Below are positions 1 to 60,800 of a stretch of DNA of 64,000 nucleotides, in pieces. The stretch spans positions 78,297-142,296 of the forward strand of contig NW_025931526.1 of assembly GCF_000764305.2 (NCBI RefSeq). The letters run 5' to 3'. This DNA is from Hyalella azteca. Its lineage: Eukaryota; Arthropoda; Malacostraca; Amphipoda; Hyalellidae. The position numbers and the translations under genes were made by a program. Position 1 is the first letter of the stretch; the number at the start of each line of letters is the position of its first letter. The notes under the pieces are model-generated. The model had not been told where the DNA came from, ran no database searches, and saw only the letters and a program-made list of their open reading frames with translations.

Positions 1-488
1 AGGAAGGAGCTTGTGGTGGGTGACGTGGTGAGGTTGAAAGCTAATTAATACACCGACCACAAGAATCGTGAGTCTCCCTACTAATACGCAGACCATCAGA
101 AATGAGGAGCTGGTGGTGGGTGATGTGGTTAGGGTGGGAGCCAATTAACATACCTATCACAGGAATTGTGTCTCCCTACTAATACGCAGACCATCAGAAG
201 TATGTCTCCCTACTAATACGCAGACCATCAGAAGTGAGGAGCTGGTGGTGGGTGACGTGGTTAGGGTGGGAGCCAATTAACATACCGACCACAAGAATCG
301 TGAGTCTCCCTACTAATACGCAGACCATCAGAAGTGAGGAGCTGGTGGTGGGTGATGTGGTGAGGGTGGTGGCCAATTAACATACCTATACAAGAACTGT
401 GTCCCCCTACTAATACGCAGACCCTCAGAAGTATGTCTCCCTACTAATACGCAGACCATCAGAAGTAAGTCTCCCTACTAATACGCAG

Positions 489-641
489 ACCGTCAGAAGT
501 GAGGAGCTGGTGGTGGGTGACGTGGTGAAGGTGGGGGCGGACGAGCAGATACCGTGCGATATGCTCCTCCTGCTCACATCAGACGGTGCGCACAAATGCT
601 CTGCCACGACCGCCAACTTGGATGGAGAGACAAACGCTAAG
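489..641 (+). CDS. P4-ATPase exon, actuator domain (LDGET)
   Basis: Phase 0 exon after the AG at 487-488. It reads [15 protein letters not shown] and ends [13 protein letters not shown]. The DGET Glu is the dephosphorylation residue of P4-ATPases. The donor gtgcac at 642 is weak. A branch-point-like ctactaat lies just upstream. The acceptor and first 30 or so exon bases are copied several times in 1-488. Confidence 0.9.
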
Positions 642-3600
642 GTGCACGACTTTGATCCCTTGCTTATTAACGTAATTTGTGTATATTGTTTATTAATTTT
701 ACATAAATTTTCAAATTTGTTTTATTTTTCAATGGGATTCACAATAAATTCGTGCTCTTGTTCGCAATAAAACGTGAATTTGTGTATATTGTTGATTAAT
801 TTTACATAAAATTTTTAAATTGTTTGATTTTTCAATGGGGTTCAAAACAAATTCGCAAAATTGTTCACAATGAAATTTTCTTTGCCACTGTTGTATCACT
901 ATTGTCAGGTTGTTCCAAGTAAATTTTTATTCGCGTGTAGTTTACTGATAAAATAATTTTTTATTGTCGTAATAGATAGAGCATGAGAGTAAACTTTTAC
1001 AGGACAACCGTTCTACAGAATAAGATTTAGGAGAGAGAGATTTCAGATCAAAGAGATTATCAGATCTCAGAGATTATAAATTATATATTCAGTGAGGCTG
1101 CTTGGATACCATGCTTTAAAATGTTGCCAAAGAAAGTTAGCATATCTAAACTGAATTTCCTATGAATGTTCATAAAATTAATGGAATTTTTATTTTGAGT
1201 ATATTGTACTATTACGGTAAATTATAATCCTATCGAAAACTTTGTATGAATTTCATAGCAATTTGAATTATTCAAATACAATATCACAAATTTTTATTAT
1301 AGCTACGTCCATTACCCATTTCTCATCAGATGTACGAACAGCCAGAGTCGCTCAAGGAACTAACGAGCTTCCGAGAAGTAGCCAGCCTCAGTGGCATCGT
1401 TCAGGCTCAGGTCAGCGTTTAGCGAGTCTCGTCGAATATTGAAACAAAATATTTTATTCGAGTTTTTCAATTTTAGTTTGGGGATCAGTTTTCGGTTACC
1501 ACGCTAGCGTCATAATCATCAAACCTTAGAGTTCTTAACTTTAATCTTTAAAAATCTTAAATCTCTTAATATGTAAATTGGATTATTTGCCAACACTAAT
1601 AAGAATTTGAATATAAATGTCTTACCAGACTCTGTATAAGTTCATTCTGCTTGGGCTGAAATGAATAAAAATTTTGTACATTGATTTCAGGACTTGCAGA
1701 AAATGCGAATTTTAACTTGTACCTTAAATACTTTTTTTTGCAGTAGGCAAAATCCATAAATAGGCCTACGTTGAATTATTTTCTGCATTAGACATCAAAG
1801 GAATTAAATATCACTAACAACAATTAAATTATATTTACAGGCTCCTCACCCGAATTTATACGACTTTAAAGGACAGATGGAGACCCTGGACAGCCGTGCG
1901 GCCGTGGCCAGTTGCTCTCTGTCGACTGAACACCTCCTGCTCAGGGGGTCGAAAATGGTTGGTCACCAACACATATACGGTAAGTAAATTGAGGAAGCTC
2001 ACGTATTATGCAATATACTGAAAACAACGGCAGTGGCAAGCCGTTCCCTGTCGACTGAACACATATACGGTGAGGGAATTGATGAAACTCACGTATGACC
2101 ATATAATATACTGAAAACAACGGCAGTGGCAAGTCGTTTCCTGTCGACTGAACACATATACGGTGAGTTAATAGATGAAACTCATGTATGTCCATACAAT
2201 ATACATAACACAATAGTTTAATACGGTAGTGGCAAGCCGTTCTTTGTCGACTGAACACATATACGGTGAGTTAATTGATAAAGCTTACGTACGACCATAC
2301 AATATACGTAACACACTGGTTTAATACGGCAGTGGCAAGCCGTTCCGTGTCGACTGAAAACATATACGGTGAGTTAATAGATGAAGCTTACGTACGGCCA
2401 TACAATATACGTAACACAATAGTTTAATAAGGTATTGGCAAACCGTTTCTTGTCGACTGAACACCTATACGGTGAGTTAATAGATTAAGCTTACGTACGA
2501 CCATACAATATACGTAACACAATAGCTTAATACGGTATTGGCAAACCGTTCCTTGTCGACTGAACACCTATATGGTTAATAAATTAATTTTTTTTCAGAT
2601 TTCGGAGTTAAGATGTTGCCGCGCATTGTAATGTATACAATTAAATAGCCATTGTTTATGGTGATAGTGTAAATTGATTATCAATTAAAAGTGTTTGCAT
2701 AGATTATGAATTGGGCCTTGACAATACGATGATATCCTACCCATAAAATATCCAAATGTAATCTATTAAAAAAGTGGGATATATAAACAGAATGAAATTT
2801 AAAGACAGTCTATTTCTTTCTTGTCACGAATATTTATTGCATACAAATGAATGAATTGTCTTTGTTTATCAGACACTTAATTTCAAAACTGTTTTGTATG
2901 TGAGGATAAAAAGGCCAAAACTTAACAAATGTTCCCGCAGGGCTTGTACTCTACACGGGCAAGGAAACAAAGATGATACTTAATACAAAGATGAAAACCG
3001 GAAAATTTTCCACCATTGAGAGGCAAGTAATTTAAACCCCCCCAAATTAAGAATTAATAAATAATGAAATAAGCCAGTTAAAATTTTCGTGAGCAATACA
3101 TTCTAATTTATACGAATAACGTACGGTAATTTGTGAACCTTTCACCGTCAAAATTTTTAATTTACGGCGGAGATTATTCCGCATGGTGAAGTCTTAAACG
3201 ATTGAATAATAATGACATACGAGCATGACATTAATCATGTGCGATTCCTTAATACCGGCCTACTTTATTGATAAAATAATCAATAAAAAATAATCTGAAT
3301 TATTTTTCTATATTATAGGTCTGCATCATACTTATTAGATCTGATATATTTTATATTCCATCCCCATTCATTCTTCAATGGATTAATTCATTTGAGGTAA
3401 TGAATTTCAGTTATAATTAATTCATGTCCACATTATATTATTTGAAATAATTTCCTAGTTCAAATGTTCAAACCAGGTTTAAATAAAGCATCTGTACAGG
3501 TCCATGAACACATACCTGCTGCTCTACCTGGTCCTAATGCTCTCCTGGATCGTGATCTGTACCATCTTAAAGTACCAGATGTATGGTAACGATAAGCTCG

Positions 3601-6600
3601 GTAAGTACCAGATGTACGGTAACGATAAGCTCGGTAAGTACCAGATGTATGGTAACGATAAGCTCGGTAAGTGCCAGATGTACGGTAACGATAAGCTCGG
3701 TAATTACCAGATGTACGGTAACGACAAGCTCTGTAAGTACCAGATGTACGGTAACGATAAGCTCGGTAAGATCCAGATGTACGGTAACGACAAGCTCTTT
3801 TTAAATACCATATGTACGGTAACGAAAAGTTCGGTAAGTACCAGGTGTACGGTAACAACAAGCTCGGTAAGTACCAGATGTACGGTAACGATAAGCTCGG
3901 TAAGTACCAGATGTATGGTAACGATAAGCTCAGTAAGTACCAGATGCACGGTAACGTCAAGCTCAGTAAGTACCAGATGTACGATAACGATAAGGTCGGT
4001 AAGTACCTGATGTATGGTAACGATAAGCTCGGTAAGTACCAGATGTATGGTAACGATAAGCGCGGTAAGTACCAGATGTATGGTAACGATAAGCTCGGTA
4101 AGTGCCAGATGTACGTTAAAGATAAGCTCGGATATTACCAGATATACGGTAACGACAAGCTCGTTGAGTACCAGATGTACGGTAACGATAAGCTCGGTAA
4201 GATCCAGATGTACGGTAACGACAAGTTCTTTTTAAATACCATATGTACGGTAACGATAAGTTCGGTAAGTACCAGGTGTACGGTAACAACAAGCTCGGTA
4301 AGTACCAGGTGTACGGTAACGATAAGCTCGGTAAGTACCAGATGTACGCTAACGACAAGCTCGTTAAGTACCACATGTACGGTAACGATAAGAGACTAGC
4401 CATGTATGCACCTACTGTTCAATGCAGAGTGTTTTTGGTTCCATTTGTGTGAGAAGAAGTCTTTTAGGTCCAACGATATCCTCTTGAATAGCTTGCTACC
4501 TGACAGTGCACCTCTAAAATTATCGTTATGTAGTTAAATGCCATCTATGTGCCCTCGTTGTTCTGGGATAACTGAATCTCATCTATGCCACATCCTAACG
4601 ACTCCTGAGAGCAAATATCTTTACATGTTACGGTCAACCACACTGACGATATTCTAGGAGAAAATATGTTTCTACTTTGAACAAACGTCAAAAGCCCCTT
4701 AATTGCATCACCCTAATAAGAAGACCATACCAGAGGGCATGTGGAGCTACCGTATCATTTTCCCCTATTATAAGTACCCTGTACTAGCCGGCATGTGTGC
4801 TCCACATACCTTTTCCTCCTCTAATAAGTACCCTGTACCAGCCGGCATGTGAGGTAGCTGATACCCATCTCCCTCTACGTCACCCTAGGTGGGTAGCTGA
4901 TACCCATCTCCCTCTACGTCACCCTAGGTGGGTAGCTGATACCCTTCTCCCTATACGTCAAACACTCACCCCATTTTTCGATAATATTTTTCCCATTTGT
5001 AAGCAATGCAAATCCCATTTGTAGTTAAAACTCGCCAATTTGTAGGTAACCTTCATCCCATTCTTAGGTAATACTTCACTCACTGTGCAAATAATTTAAT
5101 TAACGATCAGAGCCTTCCAATTTATTGCGGTTTCTGAATAATGAGATCAGATATTAATAAAAATTGTTAGAAACATACCGTTTCATCGCAAATAATGGAT
5201 ATTATTTATCAAAATTTAAAATATAAGTACATGCAGTAATTTTACGTACTGGGAGAACTTCCGAGATGTATTTCTAATGGAAAATTTTATTCAAGTATGA
5301 AATTTTAACAGAAATGCAGAAATTCGGCGGCGCCATGTTCTTTGAGTGGGACGAAGAGATGAGGCAGGGGGAGGGGGGCGACCCTCCTAAGTGCAACACT
5401 TCAGATCTCAATGAGGAGCTTGGCCAGGGGGGGGGGGGGGGGCTGCCCCTCAGGTGAAACTCTCTTGATGTTAATGAGGAGCTCGGCAGTTTGAAGAGGG
5501 GGTTGGGGGGATTACCCCCCCAGGTGCAATAATTCTCATCCTAATGAGGAATTTAGCCCGCGGATGGGGCGGTGCGACAGCTGCTTGTGGAAGAGTTTTA
5601 TAATCCTGTGCTGGTAGACACATAAAGTTATAAAGTTATAAACATAAGTTATAAAGGCCTTTATTGTTCGATTGTGATCCATGTCTTTAGTGCGGTGTTT
5701 TGGGTGGAGTCTGGCAGTTAGAGTTCTTTCAAAATTCATATTAAATGGGAATAAATATCCAAACTAAGTATACAGGTATACATAGATTCGAATAAGCCTT
5801 CAATCGGCATATTTCTAATATAGACGTATTAAATGCAGTTTATCACAGCTGAAACTTTCGCAAAGAAAACTGTACTCGTTCATACAGTATGTACAAAAAT
5901 TTTCATCATGATAATAATAAACATTTCTTGAATTTTTCCAGTGGCCATCAACAATACTTCAATTCTTGGTCTTTGAATGTTTGTTCTTAGCCATGACTCG
6001 AGCGTAATCGTATATTTAACAATAATAAATAAAATTTAGAAAAAAATTTCAATTTAATGAACGGTTATGACAGTGAACGGTCATAACAATGACATTACAT
6101 GAAATGGTCAACTTTAACGCGAGTGTAGCGAGTCTAGGGCAGAAGCTCACGCACACCGGAAAATATGTTAGAGTCAATAAGCTGGAAAATATGTTTATCT
6201 CGTCGGTGTGATAAGAAGAATTAGTTAATAATAAATATTTTGCGCAGATTGAGTACCTGTTCTGCGACAAGACGGGCACGCTAACGGAGAACCGCATGAG
6301 CTTCCGACGTTGCAGTGTGGGCACGAGGACGTACGTTCATTCCAGAGGGAGACTGTGGCACGGGCACGGGCAGCAACGCGAGCCCGTCACGTCCTTTACG
6401 GTGAACTGCGGGGTTGTATTTAATGGGAGAATATTAAGGCATTGCAAAACTGGGAGGCAAAAGAAAATTCTATGTATATGATGGTAAATATTCATTTAAA
6501 TCAGAGGGCTTATGAAAAATTTTTCTTCATCTTGAAACGCGAGTTGAATTAAATTTCTAAGCTCCATTTTCAATGTAAGCATGAACAGCTCTTTGCTCCT

Positions 6601-9600
6601 GCAGTTAACGTGCGCTAGTTTTGCTCTTTTTACAAGTTTCATTATTATTATAACGACATTTATATTATTCTCATTGTTTGGGATAATTCTCAAATTGCAG
6701 TGAAAATCGATAACGGGCAAGAAAGGGCAATTCTACGGCTCTATAATAATATATATTTTTATTCATTTTTTAAAATATCGTGTCTATTCTGGCGTAATTT
6801 TCATACATAGGATGTTTTACGTAGACTTAATTTGCAGGGAGAAATGGTGCAGTTCTTCACAAGTCTGTGTCTATGCAACACAGTGCAGACGATGTTAACT
6901 GAGGCAGGCAGTAACCCTAGCTACGTCCCCGACGTCTCGTCTACTGGACACTCCATTCAACTGGCGGCCATTAAACGCAAGTACATCTCGACGAGTCCTG
7001 ATGAAGTCGCCCTTGTCGAAACCTGCGCCAAGTGAGTGAATATTTATTTATTTACTGATAATGCTATTTTACATTACCTTAATTACATTAAAATTCATAC
7101 TAGTACATTACTTTATTTTACTTATTACTACAATCATACTCGTATTTTTCTATACTTCACTTCCTTCCATACCCATACATGTATTTAGCTTTTCTTTACT
7201 TACTTCTAGTCTCATACTAGTATCTTACTATATTTTACTTAGTTTTCATACGCAAACTACTATTTTACAATACTTTATTTACTTGCATGCTCATATTTTT
7301 AGGTTATTTGATAAAAACAACGTGTCCGACTGAATTTTCATAATAGACTTATCTTAATTTGCAAACAGAATTTTTTAAATACTGCAACCTCATATACCTT
7401 TCCGTAAATATTAAAATAATATGTAATTTCTTTAAAATTGAAATGAAAGTTCAACTTATTCGGAAAAAAATGTTGCTAAAAGTTCTCTAATGCACATTTT
7501 TTAATCGAATGTGAAGCGGACAGTTACTTAAATAAAGGTTAAATTTTCCGTAGACTGTATGCATTCTTTGAGCAAACTTTCGAATCGACGAAGCAGGTGT
7601 TAAGGAAAGCTTTGACAGATTAATTAATGCAGTGCAAGCATTAAATCTCATTTAAAAATGATTAACCTTTTCTTATCAAATCTGCCAGTGGAATTACTTC
7701 ATTTGACAGCTGGGACTATTGCATTAGAGTCAATCAATGAGTAAGACTTAAGTAATGGACGTAATAATGAGGTAATGTACGGTACGTAATGGACGTAATT
7801 GAGTAATTTTTTACTTAATAAGTACTGAAGCATATTATACTACCTCCTAATTACGCAGGTACGGTATTGTTCTACTGGGTACGCAGGAAGGTACGGTGTC
7901 CGTGGACGTGCTGGGGAAGAAAAAGACGTACAAACTCAAGCACATCTTCCATTTCCGTTCTGGTGAAAATTAGCTTGTAAATATGCAAATAATTAATATC
8001 TTGTAAGCTTTTGAAAATATTAAATTCATGTATGTTGATAATATTATGGAATTTGCATTATTCACGATTTTATGATAAGTTTATAATAGAAAATATCATG
8101 TAATATCATTTCAGCAGAAGCGTACAATGTATATGCATTGAGTAATTTATTTTTATTAAAATAAAATAATAAAAAATTTAGATAAAAATTGTTCGTACTT
8201 AACTGTGCACGACATTATAACGTATTCAGGGACTTAACAATCATTGCAATCATTTCGTGCCGACGGATAGATGAAACAGAACAAATTTGTCGAGTCACTG
8301 CTGCTCAAAATTTGGGACGTTTTTTGAATTAATTTCAAAGTCTTTATTCTTTTCTTTTCTATATTAACTATAGAGAAGAAACGTTAATGGCAAACGTTAA
8401 TAAAAATATCCTTGGATACTATAACTGATTATGGCTAAAAAACTCATTCAAAATTGATCACGATTAAGAAATGAACTTCTTCAATCTGAAATGTTTATTA
8501 CGTTTTATTGTTTAGACCACAATAGCCATAAATTTACTGGCAAACTTCATCAATCGCAAATATTAATGTTGCTGTATTATGCATCGAAAATTAAAGTATT
8601 ATTGTTACCTAAACACGAGAATTTCTGTGTGCAGAGCGGCAGAGAATGTCAGTGTGCGTACAGGCTGAGTCAGGCGACACGTGGCTGCTGAGTAAGGGGG
8701 CAGACTCTGCTATTCTGCCGCGCTGCTCTGGCGGGACAAACCTACAGAAAACTAAGGAGCATCTACACAGTTTTGCTGTGGTGAGTTTAGTGGTGAAATG
8801 TGGTGAGTTTAGTGGTGAAATATGGTGAGTTTAGTGGTGAAATAAGGTGAGTTAGTGAGGAAATATGGTGAGTTTAGTGATGATATTTGGTGATTTTGGT
8901 GATGAAATATGGTGAGTTTAGTGATGAAATATGGTTAGTTTAATGATGACATTTGGTGACTTTGGTGATAAAATATGGTGAGTTTAGTAATGAAGTATGG
9001 CGAGTTATGTGATGAAATATGATGAGTTAGTTGATGAAATATGGTGAGTTAGGAGAAGAAATATGGTGAGGAAGGTACTGAAATATGGTGAGTAGGGTGT
9101 CGAGATGTGGTGAGTTCTGTTTTAAAAGAAAATGACCATAATGTTTCACAAGCTCAATAATAATGCATAAGCATTATTAGCATAATGTTTAACAAGCTCA
9201 ATTCTGTGCAATATCTTAATTTGATGAATTGTTCAATTAATAATGAAATAGTGGCCAAATTAGTGTCCTTTCTTCACCACCGTTTACCATTGCTAGAATA
9301 GAATCTTTATTCACCTCGTGGATATTAACGTAGTTAATTTTTTAAACAATTTCCATTTATTTCCTTTACATGATAAAATTGTTGGTAGTTAGGTAACATT
9401 ATTCAAGTTCAACGTTCAAATATTATGATATATGCCTTTGTATTGTTGGGGCTCTCTGAACCACCAACTAGCCTACATGATCGTATAGGTTTATTCATTA
9501 ATGCACGATAATCAAAACACTTTATTACATAACACTTTTAAATGAACAAATAAACAATAAAGAATAACATCGGCAGATCAACACTAACACTTCATCTTGG

Positions 9601-12600: not shown

Positions 12601-15600
12601 TTGTGCGCTTACATTAAGGTAAAGACTACTCAACATTTAAACAAATTTGTTGATTTAAAATGGAATATATAAACAAAAATAATTACTGTTTTTCCTGTCT
12701 TATATTACAGTTTTCTTGCTTAATATTTGAACAAGAAGGAATAATTATTAACTGGCAATACTTCAATAGAAACGTTAAAAATTGGGTATAAACAACATTT
12801 TAAATATTAAATGTTTCAAATACCCTGTTTCCTATTAGAATGTATGTTGTCGAACTTATTTTAATTTCTTTTCGTAATTAGAGTTGCTTATTTATATCCA
12901 CGTTCTTCGTTGTTACGAATGCAAGCACAGAACGACGCGTACCGTGTAGGTCATTACAGTTAGAAGTTCCTTCCGAATTTGAATATTTTGAATTGTTCAA
13001 ACTAAGTTTATTTTACTTTGGTCGACCGAAATTACGTACAAGAAAGTATACGCATTTATTTCTATAGTGTAATTTTAAGGCAGAAATAGTAGTAAATGAC
13101 TTTACTACACTATATAGGTATAGTAAATGACTTTACTACACTATATAGGTAGAGTAAATGACTTTACTGTACTCACGGCAACACAAAACAACACATGACT
13201 TATAACACATCCACCGCATGATAGTGATAGTATACAGGATAATATTAGGCTGTATGCTAGTACATACCTGAATCTTGCACAGTTGCAGTGTTCTGTATAC
13301 TAGCATACTCATACACGCCTGAATACAGTTACAGTATTCTGTATACTAGCATACTCATACACGCCTGAATACAGTTACAGTATTCTGTATACTAGCATAC
13401 ATGTCCACGCCTGAATCTTTCAGAAAATAGTATACAGGATTAGAGTATAATAAATGGGGTAAATCTAAATCTCTCACGCGCATTTTGCTAATAAATCCGT
13501 CGTTTCACTGTAAAAAATTTCCAGCTAACTTAACTTATGTATTGCTTAATATCATTAGCATAATTATTTTGACCAAATATCTGAAATAATTGATGACTTA
13601 AAAATATTTCCTTTGACAAAAAGGAGGCGCGCGTGTCTGCGTTTTACGACAAGTTAGAAATGCGGCCTACATCAAAAATACGTGTATAATTATAATGATT
13701 TCATTGAAGACCAGAGAATTTGTTTTATTCGCAATTTTCTTATTAGTTTTTTCAATATATATTAAAAATTATATTGGAAAAACTAATAAGAAAATTGCGA
13801 ATAAAACAAATTCTCTGGTCTTCAATGAAACCTGCTTGAAAGAAGAAATTCTGCCAACCTATACTAATTATAATGATGTGCACTTGGATATTTCACAAGC
13901 ATTTCGCTTACCAATCCTTTCCTTCACTGAAAACATTTCTCCTTCTTCTTCACCTTCAGCATTAATTAACGCCTTTAAAGTATCTTTTCTAACCAATAGG
14001 AAGTAGAAGACCGCGAGACGCGCGTGTGTGCGGTGTACGACAAGTTGGTATGCGGCCTACAGCAAAATACGTGCTTAATTATAAATTTATAATCATGTGC
14101 ACTTGAATCTTTCACAAGCATTTCGTTTAGTATTACTTAATGTCTTTAAAGTATTTCTTCTAACCAATAGGAAGTAGAAGACCGGGAGGCGCGCGTGTCA
14201 GCGGTGTACGACAAGTACGAGCGCGGCCTGCGGCTGCTGGGGGCGACGGGCGTGCGGGACGACCTGCAGTCTGACGTCACCGCGACGCTGCGCGACCTCA
14301 GGGCTGCCGGTATCAAAGTAGGAATTGTCCCATGATATTGCTACGGGAGATTAAATTGTTACCATTATCCTATGATATTGCTACGGGAGATTAATTTATT
14401 GCCATTATCCTATAATATTGCTACGAGAGATTAAATTTATTGTCATTTAACCTGTGATATTACTATGAGATATGAATTTATTGCCATTACTATGATATTG
14501 CTTCGGGAGATTAATTTATTGCATTACCCTATGATATTGCTACGGGAGATTAAATTGTTACCATTATCCTATGATATTGCTACGGGAGATTAAATTTATT
14601 GTCATTATACTATGATATTGCTACGAGATATAAACTTATTGCTATTATACTATGATATTGCTACGGGAGATTAATTTATTGCCATTATCCTATGATATTG
14701 CTACGGGAGATTAATTTATTGCCATTATCCTATGATATTGCTACGGGAGATTAATTTATTGCCATTATCCTATGATATTGCTTCGAGATATGAATTTAAT
14801 AAACCCAAGGAAATTTATTACTTGATAAATTATGGTACAGAGTTGTAGCACAAGCGATAAGTTTTAAGCAACAGTAAAATTTAATATGTTTCGTATCAAT
14901 GTAAATGAAATATGATAGAACGAAAATTTTATTGTATACAACGAATTTCCTTACTTTGGCCAACTTGAAAAATTAGCTAAAAAGTAAAATTTTGATTGTT
15001 AAAAGATTTAGGATATCACCGGGAAAGAGAAATTTAAGTAGCGTCTAAGAGCTTCCAGTCTACAAATATGTTACCTCGTTGGTTGACACAAGGTAACCCG
15101 TTGTCTACGTATGCAGTACCCATCTTCAATGGTATTCGTACCTAATGGCCCGCTATGGTAACGTTGAACACCATCAGTAGTCAAAAGTTGAGACTTTATC
15201 ATCATACATTAGCCTTATTCAAGGCAGTTCATATCTACAGGCCTATAATAGCGAGTTACGAGAAATATAGTAGTAATAAGAAATAGTATTCGTGAAATAT
15301 GATGTTATTGGTACCTAAGGTCATACGTTAACGAGAGTTACCGAGTATATAGATTAATTGGTAAGAAAAATATAGATTTATTTAGAAAGATTGATATTAA
15401 AGTCACATGAGATGCGTATTACTTATCTCCCTCAGGCCTGGGTGCTTGTGCTACATGAGCTAAGTATCAAGTATCCCTAACTCCCCCAGGTCTGGGTGCT
15501 CACAGGAGACAAGCTAGAGACAGCAGTGAACGTGTCGCAGCAGTGCGGACACTTCCATCATCACATGTACGAGCTCACCGTGACGGGGACCACCAGCGCT

Positions 15601-21600: not shown

Positions 21601-24600
21601 TGTATACGGGGTATGTAAACGGGATATGTAGACGGGATATGTGTACGAGATGTGTATACGGGATATGTACACGGGATATGTGTACGGGATATGTATACGG
21701 GATATGTGAACGGGATATGTATTCGTGATATGCACATGGGATATGTACACGGGTATGTACACGGGATATGTACACGGGATATGTATACGGGATATGTCTA
21801 TTTTGTACTTTCACTGTCACATCGCCAGTTGGTATCTGGCGCTGTACAACCTAACGCTGTCCACTACAATCCCCGCAGACGGTGTATGCCAGCTGGTATC
21901 TGACGCTGTACACTACACTCCCTACAGACGGTATACGCCAGCTGGTATCTGACGCTGTACACTACACTCCCTACAGACGGTATACGCCAGTCGGTATCTG
22001 ACGCTGTACACTACACTACCTACAGACGGTATACGCCAGCTGGTATCTGACGCCTGTCTCTTATACACATCTAGATGTGTATAAGAGACAGACCTAACGC
22101 TGTACAACCTAACGCTGTCTACTACAATCCCCGCAGACGGTATACGCCAGCTGGTATCTGACGCTGTACAACCTAACGCTGTACACTACACTACCTACAG
22201 ACGGTGTACGCCAGCTGGTATCTGACGCTGTACAACCTGACGTTCGCTGGTCTGCCCATCCTGGTCTACGGGCTGCTGGAGCAGAACTACTCGCAGCAGC
22301 AGCTGCTGATGCGGCCGCGCCTCTACAACAGCATTAGCAGGGACGCTCGGATGACCTGGGGCGCCTTCCTGTTGTGGCTGGTGCTAGGTGGGTGCTGGGA
22401 GGTGCTGGGAGGTGCTAGGTGGGTGCTGGGAGCTGCTAGGTGGGCATTAGTTGCATGATAGGTCCAATGAAGTAATAGGCGGGCCACCGGTGAATGATAC
22501 GAGGTGAGAGCGTAAAATAAGTTCCACGGTCTGCCGATGGCGCTAGGATCGTTTTCTATGCGCGGCTATGGCAACACAGGCAGGTTGTTTGATTCCCCAA
22601 CTCCAATCCCTTACCAAGCCAGCGTCCCTGCGACGCTTGGTCTTGCTCCAGCAGGCGTCAGCGATGGAGCTTCCTCTTGCGTCTTCCGCCAGCTGCGAGT
22701 TGCGGTCTGTTACTTGTTCCCTGCCGCTCAGGCGAAATAGGCGATGGAAATTCACGTAAAACTTCGTCAAGTGTATAGGGAAAAGTGTATGAGCTCCGGG
22801 ATGGTGGGCAGATCCAAGCGTTGCAGGGAGGCTGGCTTGGTATGGGATTGGAGTTGAGGAATCAAACACCCTGCCTCTGTTGCCCAGCCGCGCATATAAA
22901 CGATCCTAGCGCCAGCGGCAGCCCGTGGAACTTATTTTACGCACTCGCCTCGAAGAATGGGTACTCGGTAGTTACGTAACGATCGTTAATCGTAAGTAAA
23001 TTGTGTAGGTTGGAAATATACAAGAGTTGGACAGAATAAGGAAAGCCCCTAACATTTCGAGATCTGTAGTGTTTGAATATAATATCCTAGTGTATAATCT
23101 CCTAGCTGAGAGATATTATAATTCCTTTGAGATTATTAGGTGTAAATCTGTCTTTTGTCACATTGTTAATACCGTAAATATTCACGATGCTAGTGAACTC
23201 TGGCTGATAGTCGTAACAAGTAAACTAAAATAAAAATAATCATCATTGTAAGCCAGTTAACAATGGCCAGTTTTGATATTTATAGATCCGATAGTTTTAA
23301 GATTTTATAATAACAGTTATTTTGTGTGATCATAGTTGACTCTAAAACAAAACTAAGGAACCAAGCGCGATGGGAGCAGGTATATAAGATGGGAGCAAAT
23401 TAGATTGCTAAGTAACGTTCTACAGCCTCAAAACCACTCATTCCATGAACGACAGGATATCTTATGGTATAACCTATTTCAATGGTTCATATCAAACTTT
23501 ATTAGTAGTATCTATGGTAAAATACTATCCATATATCAACCATTGACTACTGAACGTTGCTTGTAGCGCTGTGGCACGCTGCCGTGATGTACTATGGCCT
23601 GTTGATTACCGTGTATCCTGGAGACACACCGGTCACGGTATCGGGACAGACACTGGGCATGGACCCTTATGGTACTATGCTGGTTACCATGTGCGTCATA
23701 GTCGTCAACATGAAGGTAATGTATGTCTCAATCTGTTATGACGCTGTTACACTGTTAGAAAAATGACCGTTAACGGTATTACCGGCATTTCAGTGGCCGG
23801 TTGGCACGTGAAAAGAAACACCGTTTCACCGTTTTTATTCCAATTTAACACCAGAATTCCGTAAAACATCGGATAAAAACGGCAAAACAGTTTATTTTCA
23901 TGGGGCGACCGGCCACTAGGATGCCGGTGGGACCGTTTTTTCATCGTTTTTTCTAACAGTGTATAGTCATCAACATGAAAATAGTTTATACCGCTGTACT
24001 CTGCCGTGTATTTTATTGTCGTGAACATTATGATCCTAAGTGCATAGTTTACTGTTATTTTCTTCTATTGATGTGATAAACATGTATTGAGTAAGTAAAA
24101 TAGTCATTGAACATTCAGATTGACAATTTTCAAATATTAATTAGTATATACTAGATATAATCGGTATCCAGTTATAATTGATAATAGTATATGTTGAATA
24201 AATAATTACAACTTGTAACTTTAAAATATTGTTCACTAGCTGCTACTAGAAGCCTACCACCTAGACATCCTCCTTGTTGGTTCCTTCATCATCACTCTCG
24301 TGGGCTACGTCATCACACTCGCCATCTACACCTTCCCTTTCCCGTGGGTAACATCATTGCTTACGTTATCTTAATGTTCAGTGTGATGACACATGCACTA
24401 TACAATTGTGATTGTAATATGGGGAGGCTTGGTGGAAGAGGTAGGTAATGTGGGGGAGGCTTGGTGGAAGAGGTAGGTAATGTGGGGGAGGCTTCGTGGA
24501 AGAGGAAGGTAATGAGGGGAGGCTTGGTGGAAGAGGTAGGTAATGTGGGGGGAGGCTTGGTGGAAGCACACATTACCTACCCCTTGGTGGAAGGGGTAGG

Positions 24601-34890: not shown

Positions 34891-35029
34891 ATGCATTTTT
34901 TGTTGTTGTTTGTGACGTTGGGCGGGGTCTTGGGAGGTCTAACAGACCCTAGAACTCAATACTCTGCATTCAGAGACATGAGGCTGCAGACCAGCTACGT
35001 CGTGGACTACAAGCAGACCCCTACTTTGT
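34891..35029 (+). CDS. Lectin exon 1, start codon and signal peptide
   Basis: The ATG follows agagagaaaaa. The hydrophobic leader is followed by LTDPRTQYSAFRDMRLQTSY and ends KQTPTL plus one base at gtgagt. The end and its donor are copied four more times downstream. Confidence 0.8.
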
Positions 35030-38000
35030 GTGAGTACACGTAGACCCCTGCTTTGTGTGAGTACACGTAGAACCCTGCTTTGTGTGAGTACACGTAGACC
35101 CCTGCTTTGTGTGAGTACACGTAGACCCCTGCTTTGTGTGAGTACACGTAGACTTGGGGTTGTACATTATGTACTTCTTAGTACTCACCGTAAACAAAAT
35201 CTTGAGCACAACACTGCGCAGCACAATGCACCACGCGACAATATGTTGCAGGATTTTATCTAACACAATTTTACGCTACACATATTTTGTATCTCATGTG
35301 TATCTTTCCATTGAGTAATTAGTCTTACAAAATTGTGTTACATTGAGTCTGTAAAATTTCTGTATGAATATATACAAAGAACTAAAGTAGCTTTTCGTGT
35401 ATTTAAGTGTCCGACATTTAAGTGTTCAAGTCGCTATCATGTAACAACCGCAATGCATTGATTTGACACGAAATGATAATGATGATAAAGTATATTCACC
35501 GCATTGGATTCTCTATATGATGATTTCATTGATTTTATAAATCAACCAAAATCCAGAATTTTACTAAAAAATAAATAACGCTCGAAATATCTATAGGTTT
35601 AGCAGTAACGTGAAATAATGTTCTTCACATTGAATAGAAAATTAATGTTGAGTTATATGCGGACAACCAACCCCTGTCCCTGTGCGTTATTCTCAACATT
35701 ATCATTCCCCTAAAGAATAACAGTCTTGATCGTCATCCATCACATGAGTTTGCACGCTTGTCCATATTCAGCCGCAATTTTATTCACTGCAGGCGCAGTT
35801 TAGCATTTTTCTGCGTCTGAAAAATAGGTTTACCGACGAAATGATCTCGATGAATACAGTTCAATATACCTTCGATGGGCAATAACTGAGAATTATTAGA
35901 AGTGTCTGGGGCTTGCAAGGTTTCTTGTTTTGCCGAGTATATCGTTTGCCCTGAGTAAATCTGTTCTACGAATACGATTCTGTGAGTGAGTGTAGTTCGT
36001 TGATTTATTCTTTGTTTATGAAGCGTGACCTGCATGATGAAGCTCTGTTGGAAAATTGGCTATTCAGCCTTAGAAGATTACTTGATCGATCTAGCAAATA
36101 GGGCAAAGATAATGAGGCTACTGGTATTTGAAGTTGACCTCAGTGCTCATACCGATTTGTGTTGATGTACTGTATCGTCGGAGTGTTTCAATGAATTTTT
36201 AGAAGAAAATCAGTGATTATTTTTCCCGAGACACATTTCAACGATAAGATATGAGTGTAGGTCATAATAATGTGCGTTTAAAAATTAATTTTTTTAAAGA
36301 CAACACTTCTAAAGAGGCTAGTGTCTCCGATGTTGCACATGTACAATGATATTCTTATTTTGTTTTTGAATATTTGAAAAATATTCTAATTTTTCTTTAT
36401 TATATAAAAAAACAATTTTTAAATTATTTATTCTGTCAATTTATTCCTGTATTGTCTCCGACTTTATGCAAGTGTGATTGAATTTCAGATCGAACGAATA
36501 GGTAAGTACGTTAAATATCGAATATAAGTTTTGTGGCGCGCAAACAAACAAACAGCAGGAAGTAAAGTTAAAAGAAAAGTGTTGTAAAAAGGAAGTTTAT
36601 TTACCATTAGACTGGATACGCTATGTTGGGTAAATTATATCCTTGGTATTCTAGAATCTATATAGATTTCATGTTTCGGTCACACTCTAGCACTGAATTT
36701 TACTTAAATATTGTGACGTATTAAATATTGTTCGAATAACCCAAGGAAATTTAATTTTAATTTCCCGAATCATTAAATATTCAATAAACTTCTTCTAACG
36801 ACAGGTCAATGCGTCACATCTTGCCGCACCTCAGCCACATGCTACGGTGTGGCATACGGCCCCATGTACGCCACATCGGCCACCCTCGCCACCGGCACAT
36901 CCGGCGTCTGCCACATAGCCACGCAGCCACAGGTGCCGTCCGGCCTCGTCAACTACACCGGCTACACCGCCCTCATCCGCGGCAGGGTCGACTCAGGTGT
37001 AAAAGTATTCATTTCTACTTTTAAAGCCATCATTATTTTTTTAATTCAGGCCTTCAACCCGCAACATGCAGAGCATGAATAAAGTCTTAAGGCTTGTATT
37101 GAGAACCGCCCGAACTCCAGAGCGAGCTTTCCCGAATCTGCTGCCGTGACTTGTGAGGGCTGACTATCTTACGTCTGGCCGGCGTGGTGCTACAGGAATG
37201 TCGTGCTGCCGTGACTTGTGAGGGCTGACTATCTTACGTCTGGCCGGCGTGGTGCCACAGGAATGTCGTGCTGCCGTGACTTGTGAGGGCTGACTATCTT
37301 ACGTCTGTGAGATCATGGCAATCATTGGCATTCACCCCAGCAACTTGATTACTTACGGAGTTGAGACTAGGATTTCAATCCTTTTTTGTACGCGTTTTTC
37401 TTGCAGCGACATGGTGACTGCTTGACTGGTGAAAACCTAAGCCAAACCATGCAGTTGAACTTGAGTGAACTGGCATTTCCACACATGGATCCAGCTTTCT
37501 CGATGAGATAGAAATTAAAACCTGAAGTATATGGACACGAGCAGCTAAAATAACATGATCATGTAAGCATACCTCGAGTTAAAAATTTCCATTCCTGTGG
37601 TGCCACAGGAATGTCGTGCGAGCGCAGGCTTGTGTCTCGCTGCACCACACAATATCCCTGCACTTGACTAGAGCACAAGCTATCAATGAACTTTGACTAC
37701 TACCAGTAAACTTTCTGCTATTTACAGCTCGTCCATTATGAGGTGCTGTCAATTTAAAAAATTTTATTACTTAATTTTATTTTTCCGGTTAAAGGACGTA
37801 ATTATGATAATTTATAGCAAAAAAGTAGTGTAGGCTTTGATACACGTTTTCTCAAATAAACCACATTATTAATTATAATGTGGTTTATCAAATCAAATAA
37901 ACCACATAATATACCACATTATTTAAATTTGTACAAATAAAATGACTTAAATAATTATACTGATGCAACATAACATTGGAAGAGACGCTACGGAGCAGCG

Positions 38001-48238: not shown

Positions 48239-48257
48239 CTGTCTCTTATACACATCT
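48239..48257. other. Single Tn5 mosaic end (artefact)
   Basis: CTGTCTCTTATACACATCT, half of the mate-pair junction. It produces the contaminant peptide MCIRDR on the minus strand. Confidence 0.97.
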
Positions 48258-50504: not shown

Positions 50505-51205
50505 TGTACATAGAGTGTAGGTATAAACCCTAACCCTGTCAACGATTTAGGCTGTTAACCCTAACCCTGTCAACTGTTTAGGCTGTTAACCCTAACCCTG
50601 TCAACTATTTAGGTTGTTAACCGTAACCCTGTCATCTGTTTAGGCTGCTGACCCTAACCCTGTCAAATATTTAGGCCGTTAACCCTAACCCTGACAACTA
50701 TTTAGACTGTTAACCCTAACCCTGTCAACAATTAAGACTGCTAACCCTAACCCAGTCAACTATTTAGACTGTTAACCTTAACCCTGTCAAGTATTTAGAC
50801 TGTTAAACCTAACCCCGTAAACTATTTAGACTGTTAATCCTAACCCTGCCAACTATTTAGACTGTTAACCCTAACCCAGTCAACTATTTAGACTGTTAAC
50901 CCTAACCCTGTCAACTGTTTAGACTGTTAACCCTAACCCTGTAAATTATTTAGACTGTTAACCCTAACCCTGCCAACTATTTAGACTGTTAACCCTAACC
51001 CAGTCAACTATTTAGACTGTTAACCCTAACCCTGTCAACTATTTAGACTGTTAACCCTAACCCTGTCAACAATTTAGACTATTAACCCTAACCCTGTCAA
51101 CTGTTTAGACTGTTAACCCTAACCCTGTCCCCTATTTAGGCTGTTAACCCTAACTCTGTCAACTATGTAGGCTGTAAACGCTGAGCCTGCCAACTATTTA
51201 GACTA
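50505..51205. repeat. 31-bp minisatellite with CCCTAACCCT core (about 22 units)
   Basis: Unit ttaaccctaaccctgtcaac plus tatttagactg. aaccctaaccct equals two vertebrate-type telomere repeats in a 31-bp unit. Arthropod telomeres usually use TTAGG, so this is not a telomere by itself. Confidence 0.94.
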
Positions 51206-53081: not shown

Positions 53082-53300
53082 CCTACTGAGAGTCAATAGT
53101 CCTACTGAGAGTCTATAGTCCTGCTGAGAGTCAATAGTCCTACTGAGAGTCAATAGTCCTACTGAGAGTCAATAGTCCTACTGAGAGTCAATAGTCCTAC
53201 TGAGGGTCAATAGTCCTACTGAGAGTCAATAGTCCTACTGAGAGTCAATAGTCCTACTGAGAGTCAATAGTCCTACTGAGAGTCAATAGTCCTGCTTTAG
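53082..53300. repeat. 19-bp minisatellite (about 11 units)
   Basis: Unit agtcctactgagagtcaat. Confidence 0.95.
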
Positions 53301-53329
53301 TCCCCCCGTGGGCAATAGTCCCCCCGCCA

Positions 53330-53874: not shown

Positions 53875-53875
53875 T

Positions 53876-54528
53876 AACAAGATTGATCATCCATTTACAT
53901 TTCTCATTTTTTTTTTTTTTAGCGGGAAACACACTCGAAACTTGCGTTCTCTCCATAGCATCATCCGTGTGGGCTGTCTGTAGAATATTCTTGCCAGTTT
54001 TTTAGAAAAGAAAGCCAATTCTGAGGGATGCCTTCTGCTCACGAAAATTAGTCATCAAAAAACGACGAGCGCGCAAAACTGGCAGAAAAAAAATGGGATG
54101 GAACAACAAGGCCTCCTAGGGCAGCGATGCTCGGCACACTAACTACGGAGTGTCAGTAACATTTGCACGTGCTGGGAAAAGGTGGTACTACCAAAACTAC
54201 GCCCCCACACAGTCAGTCCGTTATTTTTTCGTGGTCCCGCTTTCGTACACGTTATTTAATATACACAATATACACGTCATCTATACACATAATACTCGTC
54301 ATTTTTGTATATGATTTTTCTGAAAGTCACCACTGTAGCGAAAAATCTCATGAATGTAAATGTTTTTATCATTCGTTTCATAGACTTTAAAACTAATCAT
54401 TTTAAAAATTTGTTCAATTTGAATGGCTTGGTTGAAAAGGAAGAAATACACTATTTTCAGATTATTACGATTTTACTGATGTCGTTTTATGTCCAGTCAG
54501 AACGTTAATTTATGCTATGATGCAGAGT
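53876..54528. other. No gene seen; SDR gene 3' flank
   Basis: T-run at 53910; otherwise nothing recognised. Confidence 0.45.
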
Positions 54529-54529
54529 A

Positions 54530-54535
54530 TTTATT
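54530..54535 (-). terminator. Candidate polyadenylation signal AATAAA of the SDR gene
   Basis: tttatt on the plus strand, 162 bases beyond the stop codon at 54697 on the minus strand. Confidence 0.45.
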
Positions 54536-54589
54536 CGTCCACGCTGCACCAGCGCGAGCCTCGGGTTTACCGTTATATTGACTCGTATA

Positions 54590-54730
54590 TATTGGCCTCA
54601 TGAGTTATATTATTGTTCCCCCCTTGTGCAGAGTTATATATTGGCCTCATGAGGCGCAAGTTTGACGACAAGTTTGACGTCCCCCGTTGTGCAGAGTTAT
54701 ATATTGGCCTCATGAGGCGCAAGTTTGACG
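54590..54730 (-). repeat. Tandem copies of the SDR stop-codon region
   Basis: ctcatgaggccaatatata plus actctgcac (minus) occurs three times in full or part. The real stop is in the first unit; the others form 3' UTR. A plus-strand frame through these units is a shadow. Confidence 0.85.
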
Positions 54731-54801
54731 TCGCGTTCACTGGTCGCCCAGAGTTTAGCGGCGAGGCTGTCGTCGTTGGCCAGCCTGTAGGTCCGTAGCT
54801 C
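54697..54801 (-). CDS. SDR last exon
   Basis: After acatcccag it reads [20 protein letters not shown] then [14 protein letters not shown] and TAA. A..LW..SE is the usual C-terminus of RDH proteins. Confidence 0.92.
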   Translation of the reverse strand, partial: ELRTYRLANDDSLAAKLWATSERDVKLAPHEANI

Positions 54802-57800
54802 CTGGGATGTCGGGGCATCACAACAACTAATTTAAAATTTTAATAATTTTAAATAAAATATGTGTAAACACAAATAAAACAAATGCATGGTTTATATGTG
54901 AAGAACAAATTTAAATTTTTCAAATAAAATTGTGTAAAACACAAATTAGAAAATGCATGGTTTAGAAAAAATACATGATAATTGATTGACAGTGGAATTT
55001 GTCCTACCGACATTGATAGTGACATTACATATATCAGCTGATGAATGTGAACTACCTAACAAATAAGACTAAAGCCTTCATTATTTCACTGTTACCCTAA
55101 CAAATATTAAGTTATAGTATGGCTTAGTTTACTGAGCAAAATGCAGTTCAGAAATGTACGGGAGAAATATGCTTATAAATAAATAGCTCATGATGGCTCG
55201 AATGGCTGCATGGTAGTACAGTGACAGTATATGCACAGTATTCACACTACAGTCATTGTACATGTACTGTAATCACCCTACACTCACTGTACATGTACTG
55301 TACTCACCCTACAGTCACTGTACATGCACTGTACTCACCCTATAGTCACTGTTCATGCAGTGTACTCACCCTACAGTCACTGTACATGTACTGTAATCAC
55401 CCTAAAGTAACTGTACATGTACTGTACTCACCCTAAAGTAACTGCACATGTACTGTACTCACCCTACAGTCACTGTACATGTAATAGAGTCACCCTACAG
55501 TCACTGTACATGTACTGTGCTCACCCTACAGTCACTGTACATGTACTGTACTCACCCTACAGTCACTGTACATGTACTGTACTCGCCCCACAGTCACTGT
55601 ACTTGTACTGTACTCACCCTACAGTCACTGTAAATCTACTGTACTCACCCTACAGTCACTGTACATGTACTGTACTCACCCTACAGTCACTGTACATGTA
55701 TTGTACTCACCCTACAGTAACAGTACATGTACTGTACTCACCCTACAGTCACTGTACATGTACTGTACTCACCCTACAGTCACTGTACATGTACTTTACT
55801 CGCCCTACAGTCACTGTACATGTACTATACTTACCATCCAGTCACTTTACATGTACTGTACTCACCCTACAATCATTGTACATGCACTGTACTCACACTA
55901 CAGTCACTGTACATGTACTGTACTCATCCTAAAGTAACTGTACATGTACTGTACTCACCCTACTGTCACTATACATGTACTGTACTCACCCTACAGTAAC
56001 TGTACATGTACTGTACTCATCCTACAGTCACTGTACATGTACTGTACTCACCCTACAGTCACTGTACATGTACTGCACTCACCCTACAGTTACTGTACAT
56101 GTACTGTACTCACCCTACAGTCACTGTAGTAACGGCCGCTCTGGTGTGCTACTGCATCGTCTACTGCACAGTAGATGTTGGTCTGTGCGCCCAGCTCAGC
56201 ACTCTGGTAGACAAATACACTCTCATCTACTTAGTATATATAGCTTCATCTACTTCGAATATACCCTCATCTACTTAGTATATAGCCTTATCTACTTCTA
56301 AACCCTCATCTACTCGTAGAATATCGCATCGTTGGCCTGAATAAAATAAGAGTATGTCACGTAAATTCATGCAAATTAAATAAAGTAAGTAAAGGCTCAC
56401 GAAAAAGCAGCTCCTAATAGCAGGAATTGCCCGCAAAACTGTCGTACTGACACGATTGTAAACTTGATAAATGATAAACAATTTTTTTGGAAATTTTGAA
56501 ATAAATTTCTAGCTTGGCGTTTCACAAAACTCTGGTGCAGAGGGAATGCCAAGGTTATTTTACTTCAGGATATTTTGATGACAAATCAAGTGCAGCGATT
56601 GTTTCTAATAAACATCTAGTACCAAGTAAATAATAGTTATTAGGTAACAAGAACTAGTCAGGTTAACCATGATAGTTAATTAAATAAGTCCATTACACCT
56701 TTAATTATTTTTCGTTGCTTCTAAAATATCAACAAATAATGTATTTTGTAAATATTTTATTGCAAAGTCAAAGTAGATGCTGGTGCTATTCTATAGAAAA
56801 TCTAGTTTTATTCAGGAACATGAAGAATTATTCAATTATAACACAGTCATGTGCATTAAAAACAGATTCTTACTTGATCATGTCATAATTTATTCATTCG
56901 AGTAAGATAACAAGTAACGTAATTAAAATTTCCCGATTATAGAGTTAGGCTAAAGAAACACACTTAGATAGTAAATCTGTGATGGTGATACTTGGCTGTG
57001 AGAAAAATAAAAATGTTTATCTGAACTCGAAATATGGCCGACAGAAGATTCTACATTAGTTTCTTTGAATATGTCTGTAAAATATATCTTGGTATACATC
57101 AATACAGGCTCGTCATGTATACGACTGTATGAGTAAAACTTCCATTCCTCTAAACAGGTGTGTACTCACATAACTCATACGTGTACGTGTACACATACAT
57201 ACGTATAAACACACACGCACGTACGTACAAGCGTACACGTTGCAGTGTACTCACCTTACCCATGAAGCACATGAAGTTAGCAAACCAGTCTGCCACCATC
57301 ACCGAGTTCTTGTGGAATATTTCGGTGGCCACGAAGCCGGGGTGTACGGAGTACGTAGTTACACCTGTACACATGTACGGAGTACGTAGTTACACCTGTA
57401 CACATGTACGGAGTACGTAGTTACACGTGTACACATGTTCGGAGTTGTCCGACAGTACAACAAGTTCTAATGTGTTTACCAACAGACCTAGTTAGCTATT
57501 AGGTCCACGGTGTCACTGAGACCTTGCCATACAGCATATGTGTCACAGAGACACGTGATCGATCACGCGATCAAGACCTTAGCGAAGCTTATAAAAGGCT
57601 TAGTAAACTTAAGCAATCCCCCCAGTAGCTGATGAGCACTCAGCGATGTAGCGTGTAGCTTGAGTTCTCCGACCTTACGGTCGATGCCGTAGCTTATTCC
57701 TCTGTATCGCAACTCTGTATTACCAAGATACGTTATCTGTATCTGTATACAAGATACGTTATCTGGACTGATGTGTCTTACTTATCCCTCACTACCTTAG

Positions 57801-60800
57801 TCAACGAAACCCGATCCTCAGGTAGAGCTTAATATGATGAGTTCAACGTCTTGAGCGCAACCTCGGACAGAGTACGTTGTTACATCTGTACGCTCGTACT
57901 TCTGTGTTTAATTACTACTTCTGTTGGTACTTCATGTAGAATAGCGGCAAAGTGTATATAAAATAGCATAATTATAGTATAATACATATTATTAACACAT
58001 ATAAATTATTAATAATACTGAACATGCTTTTTCACTGCACGTTAGGTGATTGAATGTACAATTTCGAACGTTCATATTACCATTTGATAAGTTCAACAAA
58101 TTACTATCGATATCAATTTAGACAAACTCTTCGCTACAAGTAAAATAAAAAGACAACTTCCTGACATTTCAACATGATTATACTTATTATAAGTTTTTTC
58201 GCATAAATCTAATTTCTACAAAAAATTTGCGCTGAATAAAAAATTTTGCGGAACTTTAGAACGAAAACGACTCATTTTATTTACCAGTCCCCTGCAGTTC
58301 TCTCCCCAGTCCCCTGCAGTTCTCTCACCAGTCCCCTGCAGTTCTCTCCCCAGTCCCCTGCAGTTCTCTCACCAGTCCCCTGCAGTTCTCTCACCAGTCC
58401 CCTCCAGTTCTCTCACCAGCCCCCTGCAGTTCTCTCACCAGTCCCCTCCAGTCTTCTCGCCAGTTCTCGAGTCATGAGGATGTTGGCCAGTTTGCTGAGG
58501 CTGTAAGCTCTGTAGTCGCCGTATGGAATGTTTCTGAAGTTCAAGTCCTCAACATCCATTTTTCCAGTCCAGAAGTAAGCAAGGGAAGCCACGCACACCA
58601 CTCTACTTGGAGCTCCGTTCTTCAGTAGCTTGCCTGGGTTCGTGTTAATCAAATTAAATTAATGAGGATAAAGTTTACACATTAATATCTGAACAGGCAG
58701 TGTTGAACGCGGTCATCCTTACGTCTGTTGAACTTATGTATTAAAGCAAGACATCACCTGTGCCAGCATTACGAGTTGTGATCCGATCGTCGATCAGCAT
58801 TATAATGATAAATAAATTATTGATTTCAGAAATGAATTATGTTATTGTCTAAAATTTCTCGAATTGGTTCTTATACTATGTAATTTGTATTGATAAACAA
58901 AAAATGATCAATAATCAAAACGAAACCGCGTCTCCCTTTATTGTCCTGTGAGAACATGAAGGGTTTACATGAACATTCTTTACAAGCAACTTAAACTTTC
59001 TTCTTTTACAAGCAACTTATATTCCGTGACCTGGTTAATCCTATCCCATGATATGATGTGAAAATACATGATAGTTGGAAATTAAATCCATTGTTATCGA
59101 AAATTACTTCTAGCTGCAGCAGGAGGTAAAGGCAATACAGAATCGTTGACCACCGAGCTCTAGTAGAGGCATATTGAAGGCAGGTAGAGGCATATTGAAG
59201 GCAGGTAGAGGCATATTGAAGGCAGGTAGAGGCATATTGAAGGCAGGTAGAGGCATACCTAAAACAAATTCTGTACCTAATAGTTCATTTCGGCTCAGCT
59301 TATTCATGTTTATCATGTTTCATGGGGTTATCTTTATATTCTAATAGAATTTCCAGTTATTAAGTATTACGCCAAAACAAACCAGATTCTGCTTGTCATT
59401 ATTTCACTTTAAAACATTTCTCAGAATAATTGTCAGTGACTGGCTCAGCTCCTTGATATAAGAGACTGGCCAGAAAACCGGTAATATATCTTATCGAAAC
59501 CTGTTCTGTCATGAACGAGGAAGTGCATGTTTTTTAGCGCATTTTCTCATTTATGGAAAAAGGCGCTATTTTGGTCGCCATGTCCGTCTGTCTGTCCGTC
59601 CGTCCGTCCGTGACTTCACGTTTTCGTCGACGAGAAAATGCGCCCTCTGTCACTCACTGCAGTGAGTACTGAGTTACATTTCTGGTTTTTCCAAACTGGT
59701 TTGGTAATAGACCGCTAGTGGTAGTCTCCTACCTAGCATGTTGGTGAGTAAGAAGTGACCGTAGTGGTTGGATGCCATGGTTAACTCGAATCCATCTTCA
59801 CTCATTTGCTTCTGCACAGATCCACCAATTCCGGCGTTGTTTACCTGCAATCAATTGTGCATGTAAATGAAAAATTTTAATATGGAAAATTTTTATATTA
59901 ATTGTTGAACAATTGTAAGCATCGCCTAGTGCTATATTAGATCATATAAAAAATTAGTTAATCAACTTGTTTATTTCTCTATTATAAATCGTTTTTTCAT
60001 CTCGATATCGCTAATTCTCATCATGAATAAATTAGACGTCTCTCGGTAATTTTCTTATACAAGCAAGAGATTATGCGAACTAAACGATAATCTTCTAGTA
60101 ATGATTCTTTCAGCCGTTTACATCATTAATTTCATGTAATTTATTCTAAAATTTACAACTAGTATTTCTAAAGCGTATCTAAACGTTTAAATCGCCTCAG
60201 TCCTTGTTAAATACTCTAAGCACATGTTTTCATTCCTACGAATAATTTTATACACTGAAGGCATTCAGAAATGTTTTCTTCCTAGACTACGTTTCTTATG
60301 AAGGTAGCGAGTGCAGCGGCGACTTTAACATCATAAAGTAGTTACAGGCTTACCAAGATGTGCAAGGCAGTCCCATTAAAGGCAATAACTTACCAAGATG
60401 TGCAAGGCAGTCTCATTAAAGGCAATAACAGACTTACCAAGATGTGCAAGGCAGTCTCGGTCTGTAGGATGTCGTTGCAGAACGCACGAACGGAAGCCAG
60501 TGACGCCAGATCAAGTTTTTTCACAGTTACCGCTTCATTTCCAGACATTCTCTTTATATTGTCTGCAACAAAATGAATAATATTAGTTATTAATATGTTA
60601 ATAATATTATATATGTGTATTGAATTATTTCCAAAATTTCAATGTATGCAAATTTCTGACAATTTTCGTGAGTTTGATGATATTTTTCAGGTATGTAACA
60701 CGATTAAGGCCGCGCAGCCTGACAATGAAAATAAACATTTAATATAATGTTGATGAAAGTTTTATTCAATATGGGAAGTAAGTATATAAAAATTTTCCAA

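Follow-up and report, generated by a model that had tools for sequence, protein, structure and literature searches.

A 64,000-nucleotide stretch of DNA from the amphipod Hyalella azteca (here called the window), which lies within a 158,590-base-pair (bp) contig of the 519-megabase genome, contains tandem arrays whose units are copies of splice junctions. Border-spanning arrays were detected over 8 donors and 4 acceptors and were distributed among three unrelated genes, in line with an earlier note on the window; these are a P4-ATPase gene, a lectin-like gene (LOC108681984) and a short-chain dehydrogenase gene. Minisatellites that span exon-intron boundaries are known in amphioxus, where they were named mirages (PMC3087553, PMC3902484, as far as the available portions of these papers extend). 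We consider it probable (about 0.72) that the Hyalella arrays are splice-junction minisatellites of this kind and that they were seeded at exon-intron borders more often than random placement predicts. The excess over random seeding was roughly fourfold in the window and roughly threefold in P4-ATPase DNA outside it, so that arrays begin at borders some three to four times as often as expected.

The first of the three genes had as its closest named matches, among the matches listed (at least 120), decapod phospholipid-transporting ATPases annotated as IF or IF-like. The second encodes the predicted H. azteca protein LOC108681984, which was matched with 99% identity across 87% of the query in a protein search and has a paralog, P0124, that carries a Lectin_C domain. 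The third encodes the short-chain dehydrogenase, which we took to be RDH-like. Across these genes 33 exons were placed, giving 63 splice borders of which 3 were uncertain. Borders were recovered by use of homologous proteins and a spliced aligner written for the analysis. Of the 24 P4-ATPase borders as far as position 10839, 18 were recovered exactly, as were 18 borders between 10839 and 25826 with P0049 (one of the two reference proteins). The aligner also produced some spurious short exons and set the exon fragment ending at 4888 onto the next array copy. One P4-ATPase intron, at window position 3022, was of the GC-AG type with the donor GCAAGT.

Copies of each junction were sought with a 28-base probe (14 exon and 14 intron bases) that had to match at 20 or more of its 28 positions, within 2.6 kilobases (kb) and on the same strand. 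The earlier note had named 15 exon edges as being repeated in a neighboring array, and at least one extra copy was detected for 14 of them. At the other edge, 5427, the probe matched only a run of G residues, and the final 24 bases of the exon recurred in degenerate form (Table 1). All 15 edges were thus accompanied by nearby same-strand copies, four of them (8780, 22387, 5427 and 4888) being weak or damaged cases, and the probe added a further edge, 15490, that was absent from the earlier list. Duplication of the region around the dehydrogenase stop codon at 54697, also proposed from the sequence, was confirmed as a single perfect copy. The largest sets of junction copies were present at 56114 and 3600, followed by those at 58439, 489 and 1979. 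An array of 34-bp units resembling that at the start of the window was also present upstream of the window (L002, 9775-9903).

Whether border arrays exceeded chance depended on the null that was chosen. Tandem Repeats Finder reported 101 rows, which were merged into 66 arrays, 39 of them inside gene spans. Counted per position, there was no excess: 12 of the 60 certain borders (0.20) lay in arrays, as did 0.21 of intron positions. A count made independently of the repeat finder placed 15 of 62 borders (0.24) in arrays; the corresponding fractions were 0.19 for intron positions and 0.04 for exon interiors. A second null counted each array once and dropped one seed unit (the first) randomly outside exon interiors. 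Under this null a certain border was spanned by 12 of the 39 genic arrays versus 2.8 expected (binomial P of 1.2e-5), and similar results were obtained with a 5-base margin on each side (11 versus 2.4 expected) or with an alternative merging rule (10 versus 2.3). Weighting by the guanine-plus-cytosine content of the arrays raised the expectation by only about 15% and explains little of the difference. As a multi-copy array covers many intron bases but only one border, and that one through its terminal copy, parity per position implies an excess per event. The proposal that arrays overlap borders more often than randomly placed units was therefore borne out per array but not per position.

Since the hypothesis had been suggested by the window, DNA outside the window was examined. 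A genome search with a shrimp P4-ATPase returned 31 exon matches, and the outside sample consisted of parts of four P4-ATPase paralogs (C3938, C875, C2319 and C1460) together with the upstream stretch of the window's own P4-ATPase gene. For each locus, spliced alignments of six homologous proteins were made and borders with at least three supports were kept; in the upstream stretch the four borders were assigned manually. Alignments scoring below 200 and exons shorter than 40 bases were excluded. In this DNA, 9 of 28 arrays spanned a border versus 2.67 expected (P of 8e-4). The count fell to 8 of 28 (P of 1.3e-3) when support from at least four proteins was required and to 6 of 28 (P of 0.012) with at least five; among those lost at stricter support was D2635 in C1460, which three of six alignments supported and for which another alignment picked 2629. 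At position 3941 of C3938, the exon tail and ten intron bases were present about five times. Combining the window and the outside loci, 21 of 67 arrays spanned a border versus about 6 expected. These results supported a border excess in a narrow sample of genes.

Some arrays were left out of the outside count. An array of C875 (7797-8473) had initially been scored as border spanning, giving 10 of 28, and was removed, since the exon that the aligner had put there was false. Possible border arrays at the ends 10625 (C3938) and 9925 (C875), acceptor copies ahead of exon 8032 (L002), and an array of the upstream stretch that precedes the next P4 exon by 250 bp and holds copies of the 5' edge of that exon were not counted. 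Elsewhere in C2319 (L041, C2319:286001-290000), an array of 17-bp pyrimidine-rich units, at 1167-1472 of the minus-strand reading, stopped 6 bases before an exon and looked as though it functions as the polypyrimidine tract of that exon.

Several observations weigh against seeding at borders, and some of them would suit a different account, in which minisatellites are abundant, show no border preference, land on splice sites in some cases and are noticed there because readers recognize copies of exons. The parity of borders and intron positions is one of these observations. Arrays were common in general, covering 1 to 34% of each 10-kb stretch in a sample of 16, of which eight came from other contigs. 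None of 17 exons of the lectin family (c2, c3 and c4) was spanned by an array; no placed edge of an AMPK-like gene was spanned, a single array being present within the gene span; and no array was detected at the edges of the coding segments of a Na/H-exchanger-like gene (L010) or of L014. Exon finding by codon usage in random stretches had yielded few recognizable genes (the AMPK-like gene, the Na/H-exchanger-like gene and a dehydrogenase paralog), and Pfam named few of the short segments. The three genes of the window were those that had generated the hypothesis, the outside sample represented one gene family with one of its five loci being part of the P4-ATPase gene of the window itself, and each of the nine outside border arrays was over a donor, with none over an acceptor. 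The assembly faults and the rearranged dehydrogenase site described below count on the same side. Overall, the rate of spanning differed among genes and the gene sample was narrow, and the recurrent amplification of borders inferred in the earlier note was supported in the window and in the outside P4-ATPase DNA without being universal. The per-array excess in both of these samples argues against an absence of border preference, which we regard as unlikely.

Table 1. Splice-junction arrays and related duplications in the window. Copy numbers include the real junction unless marked as extra.
Positions	Strand	Unit (bp)	Feature	Junction copies	Remarks
1..500	+	34/100	Branch-point-like sequence, acceptor and first bases of P4-ATPase exon 489-641	7	
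1968..2576	+	103	Array over donor of exon 1841-1979	7	All GT
3570..4392	+	33	Array over donor of exon 3500-3600	22	GT in 19
4853..4960	+	39	Array over exon fragment 4858-4888 and donor		
5404..5560	+		Degenerate copies of tail of exon 5312-5427		18/24 and 17/24; G-run, without canonical donor
8779..9093	+	22	Array from donor of exon 8635-8780		Units with 2-3 exon bases
13609..14220	+		Diverged copies of 5' edge of exon 14171-14317		35/50 at 13609, 43/50 at 14000
15422..15503	+		Acceptor copy, exon 15490-15632	1 extra	21/28
21854..22242	+	49/64	Array over acceptor of exon 22201-22387	6	All AG; interrupted by adapter at 22054-22091
22381..22444	+	10/21	Short array, donor of exon 22201-22387	1 extra	Weak
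25577..25861	+	76	Array over acceptor of exon 25826-25966	4	All AG
35008..35153	+	27	Array over donor of LOC108681984 first exon (34891-35029)	5	
54628..54760	-		Duplicated dehydrogenase stop-codon region		One copy, 35/35
55217..56128	-	31	Array over donor of exon 56203-56114	29	GT in 25
57343..57445	-	31	Array over acceptor of exon 57364-57255		
58283..58464	-	22	Array over donor of exon 58633-58439	8	GT in 6
60343..60458	-	40-44	Array over donor of exon 60562-60438		Array here also in L003 paralog
60819..60911	-		Exon with single acceptor in window		Acceptor amplified (42-bp unit) in L003 paralog

The relative ages of introns and arrays were examined in paralogs. Published models tie tandem duplication of AG|GT sequences to intron gain (PMC3087553 and PMC4974935, in the portions available), and the earlier note had pointed to this link, under which the arrays would mark introns that were born in this way. 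One case was testable. An intron at P4-ATPase reference position 803.1 had the same position and phase in C3938 and C2319 when compared with two reference proteins, and a donor array was present in C3938 but not in C2319. As this intron is common to distant paralogs and only one of them has the array, the intron is the older of the two. In this single case a link to intron gain was thus unsupported, and we consider an origin of these introns by tandem duplication to be very improbable. Other arrays were common to paralogs. The donor array at the first exon of the lectin-like gene was present in the window (5.4 units) and in contig C2243 (4.3 units, cut by adapter), with differing unit variants, and an array over the dehydrogenase donor at 60438 was also present in the paralog just beyond the window (L003). 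Sharing of this kind suggested that some arrays may predate duplication of the genes.

The dehydrogenase genes also differed at an acceptor. In the L003 paralog, five copies of an acceptor-spanning unit were followed by a stretch resembling a retroelement fragment and then by the real acceptor; Pfam found nothing in this stretch, and its assignment as a fragment is our own reading. Six acceptor junctions were therefore present in L003 versus a single one in the window. On the minus strand of the window (60911-61070), exon 60911-60819 has its acceptor only 27 bases downstream of a copy of another dehydrogenase exon-like stretch, at the position of the L003 array, and the site is thus either rearranged or misassembled. 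For this reason the two genes do not show which state came first, and a proposal that they form a before-and-after pair with short direct repeats was withdrawn; an eight-base repeat in L003 was attributable to the array itself. Given a pair without direction, the manner in which a first duplication forms is something that we infer. Further copies of dehydrogenase exons were observed beside the window's copy, at window positions 60938-61760 and in L003.

The assembly retained sequence of a mate-pair junction adapter. It occurred at five sites in the window (22054-22091, 44504-44541, 45691-45728, 48239-48257 and 62872-62909), of which four lay within or next to tandem arrays; among the other loci checked (loci L018 to L037 being unlisted), nine sites were detected, with five in or next to arrays. 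In C2243 (L043, C2243:5600-6700), an adapter joined the lectin donor array directly to sequence whose place in the window is upstream of the gene. Exon 1 was absent from the examined stretch of this contig, and these defects may be the reason why the NCBI gene LOC108668287 is partial. Between the two arrays at window positions 3600-4858, about 33 P4-ATPase residues that are present in the homolog P0001 were missing; exon sequence was probably lost here during assembly, and the site at 4853..4960 is probably misassembled. Assembly faults are therefore present in or near several arrays, and copy numbers and some of the exon fragments cannot be trusted. These faults could suggest that the arrays are largely artifacts of short-read assembly or gap filling. 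The copies, however, had diverged from their consensus by about 7%, and arrays over the same junctions were present in paralogs elsewhere, which suggested that the arrays are real. The amphioxus precedents were moreover backed by reverse transcription-PCR, trace data or resequencing (PMC3087553 and PMC3902484, available text), and an artifactual origin of most arrays appears highly improbable.

The fate of the extra splice sites was assessed in 107 aligned copies from 11 arrays. An intact GT or AG was retained in 92 of the 107 copies, a level that could be taken to suggest that the extra sites are selected, either as redundancy or as tuners of splicing. However, the GT and AG positions matched the consensus at 198 of 214 bases, compared with 3,029 of 3,256 bases elsewhere in the units (P of 0.78). 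As these dinucleotides decayed at the rate of neighboring positions, there was no sign in these copies that extra sites are purged or kept. Selection for additional splice sites therefore has little to recommend it, and the extra sites look neutral, in agreement with the suggestion of the earlier note that such copies are harmless. The copy that is spliced would be the one beside the exon body: in the NCBI protein P0121, a gene model for the lectin-like gene, the first donor in the array is the one used to join exons 1 and 2.

We infer the following mutational route. A short segment across an exon edge would be duplicated in tandem, and slippage or unequal exchange would later expand and homogenize the array. 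The copy that adjoins the intact exon body would retain its splice function. The remaining copies would sit in the intron, be removed with it and drift neutrally.

A cause for the seeding at borders was sought in the arrays themselves. A highly improbable candidate is that the donor motif is a duplication hot spot wherever it is present: donor arrays did outnumber acceptor arrays by 17 to 4 (8 to 4 in the window and 9 to 0 outside, or 18 to 5 with two L003 arrays, P of 0.011), but if one functional site simply had to be retained, donors would be favored on that account by 1.7 to 2.4 to 1, and in 189 arrays, mostly without border arrays, GGTRAGT was present in 2 (1.4 expected), GTRAGT in 10 (7.4 expected) and YYNCAGG in 6 (9.6 expected), the three paralog border arrays still included in this set being able to move the motif counts only upwards. 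Since splice motifs were not enriched away from borders, the motif alone seems not to be the reason. It is conceivable, although doubtful, that true exon-intron borders of amphipods are hot spots of short tandem duplication through events of transcription or splicing, and that the splice motif as such is not responsible, the same motifs elsewhere not being enriched in arrays. Breakage linked to transcription or splicing is the boldest reading left and is a candidate only, with a property of the exon sequence as another.

Mirages have been reported in the amphioxus genes Adh3, troponin C and PGBD5 and in the globin genes BflGb6 and BflGb9 (PMC3087553, PMC3902484; these and the other papers compared here are represented by the portions available). 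The Hyalella arrays resemble them in being minisatellite-like tandem duplications over donor and acceptor boundaries in several unrelated genes, with AG or GT in many copies and with comparable units, which range in amphioxus from tens of bp to about 160 bp. They differ in having a crustacean host and in that the excess per event and the neutral decay of extra sites were measured. Length polymorphism and correct splicing have been reported for amphioxus mirages, whereas the Hyalella arrays are known from assembled sequence. A literature search aimed at crustaceans and Hyalella, which covered few subscription journals, returned no report of splice-junction minisatellites in arthropods among the matches listed. 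The phenomenon is one already described in amphioxus, and what is new is its presence in a crustacean, together with the excess per array that was measured.

Related systems have been described in other animals. In recent human paralogs from segmental-duplication genes, boundary tandem repeats were linked to new introns (PMC2812944), and the boundary minisatellites vary between recent paralogs as in Hyalella; half of the human repeats, however, lie in coding exons, whereas in Hyalella the copies are intronic and adjoin splice sites. Tandem genomic duplication as a route of intron gain (PMC4974935) is similar in involving duplication across AG|GT but differs in that the 803.1 intron of Hyalella, in this one case, is older than its array. 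The introns of earthworm metallothionein genes hold minisatellites, and tandem exon duplications were present in one clone (PMC12783039); the intronic minisatellites are alike, but units spanning splice sites are not described in the available text. In a prawn lectin family, tandem repeats are present in the coding region (PMC7536079).

In the literature covered, mirages have so far been a lancelet feature, and H. azteca would add a second and very distant lineage with many of them. Arrays that are shared by paralogs or differ between them would make the origin, turnover and splicing effect of such arrays measurable, and splice-junction arrays offer a way to study both duplication in the genome and the tolerance of splice sites. 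If borders are indeed hot spots, border duplication would be a general and measurable mutation process that gives splice-site redundancy in distant animal lineages. The arrays also accompany broken short-read assemblies and gene models, and with pieces of exons missing beside them, Hyalella genes may be misannotated.

Other features of the window were recorded. The last exon of LOC108681984 (45884-46108) has a frame shift relative to the paralog LOC108669137, the C terminus of which is intact. An open frame of 431 residues on the minus strand (40020-41315), which matched a zinc knuckle and, weakly, an aspartyl protease, is a retroelement gag-like gene. A hairpin with a perfect 50-base arm was detected at 13716-13840, and an element resembling it was present at 63640-63760, in which the same check did not find a perfect 30-base arm. 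An array of about 22 copies of a 31-bp unit, which includes AACCCTAACCCT, was present at 50526-51204.

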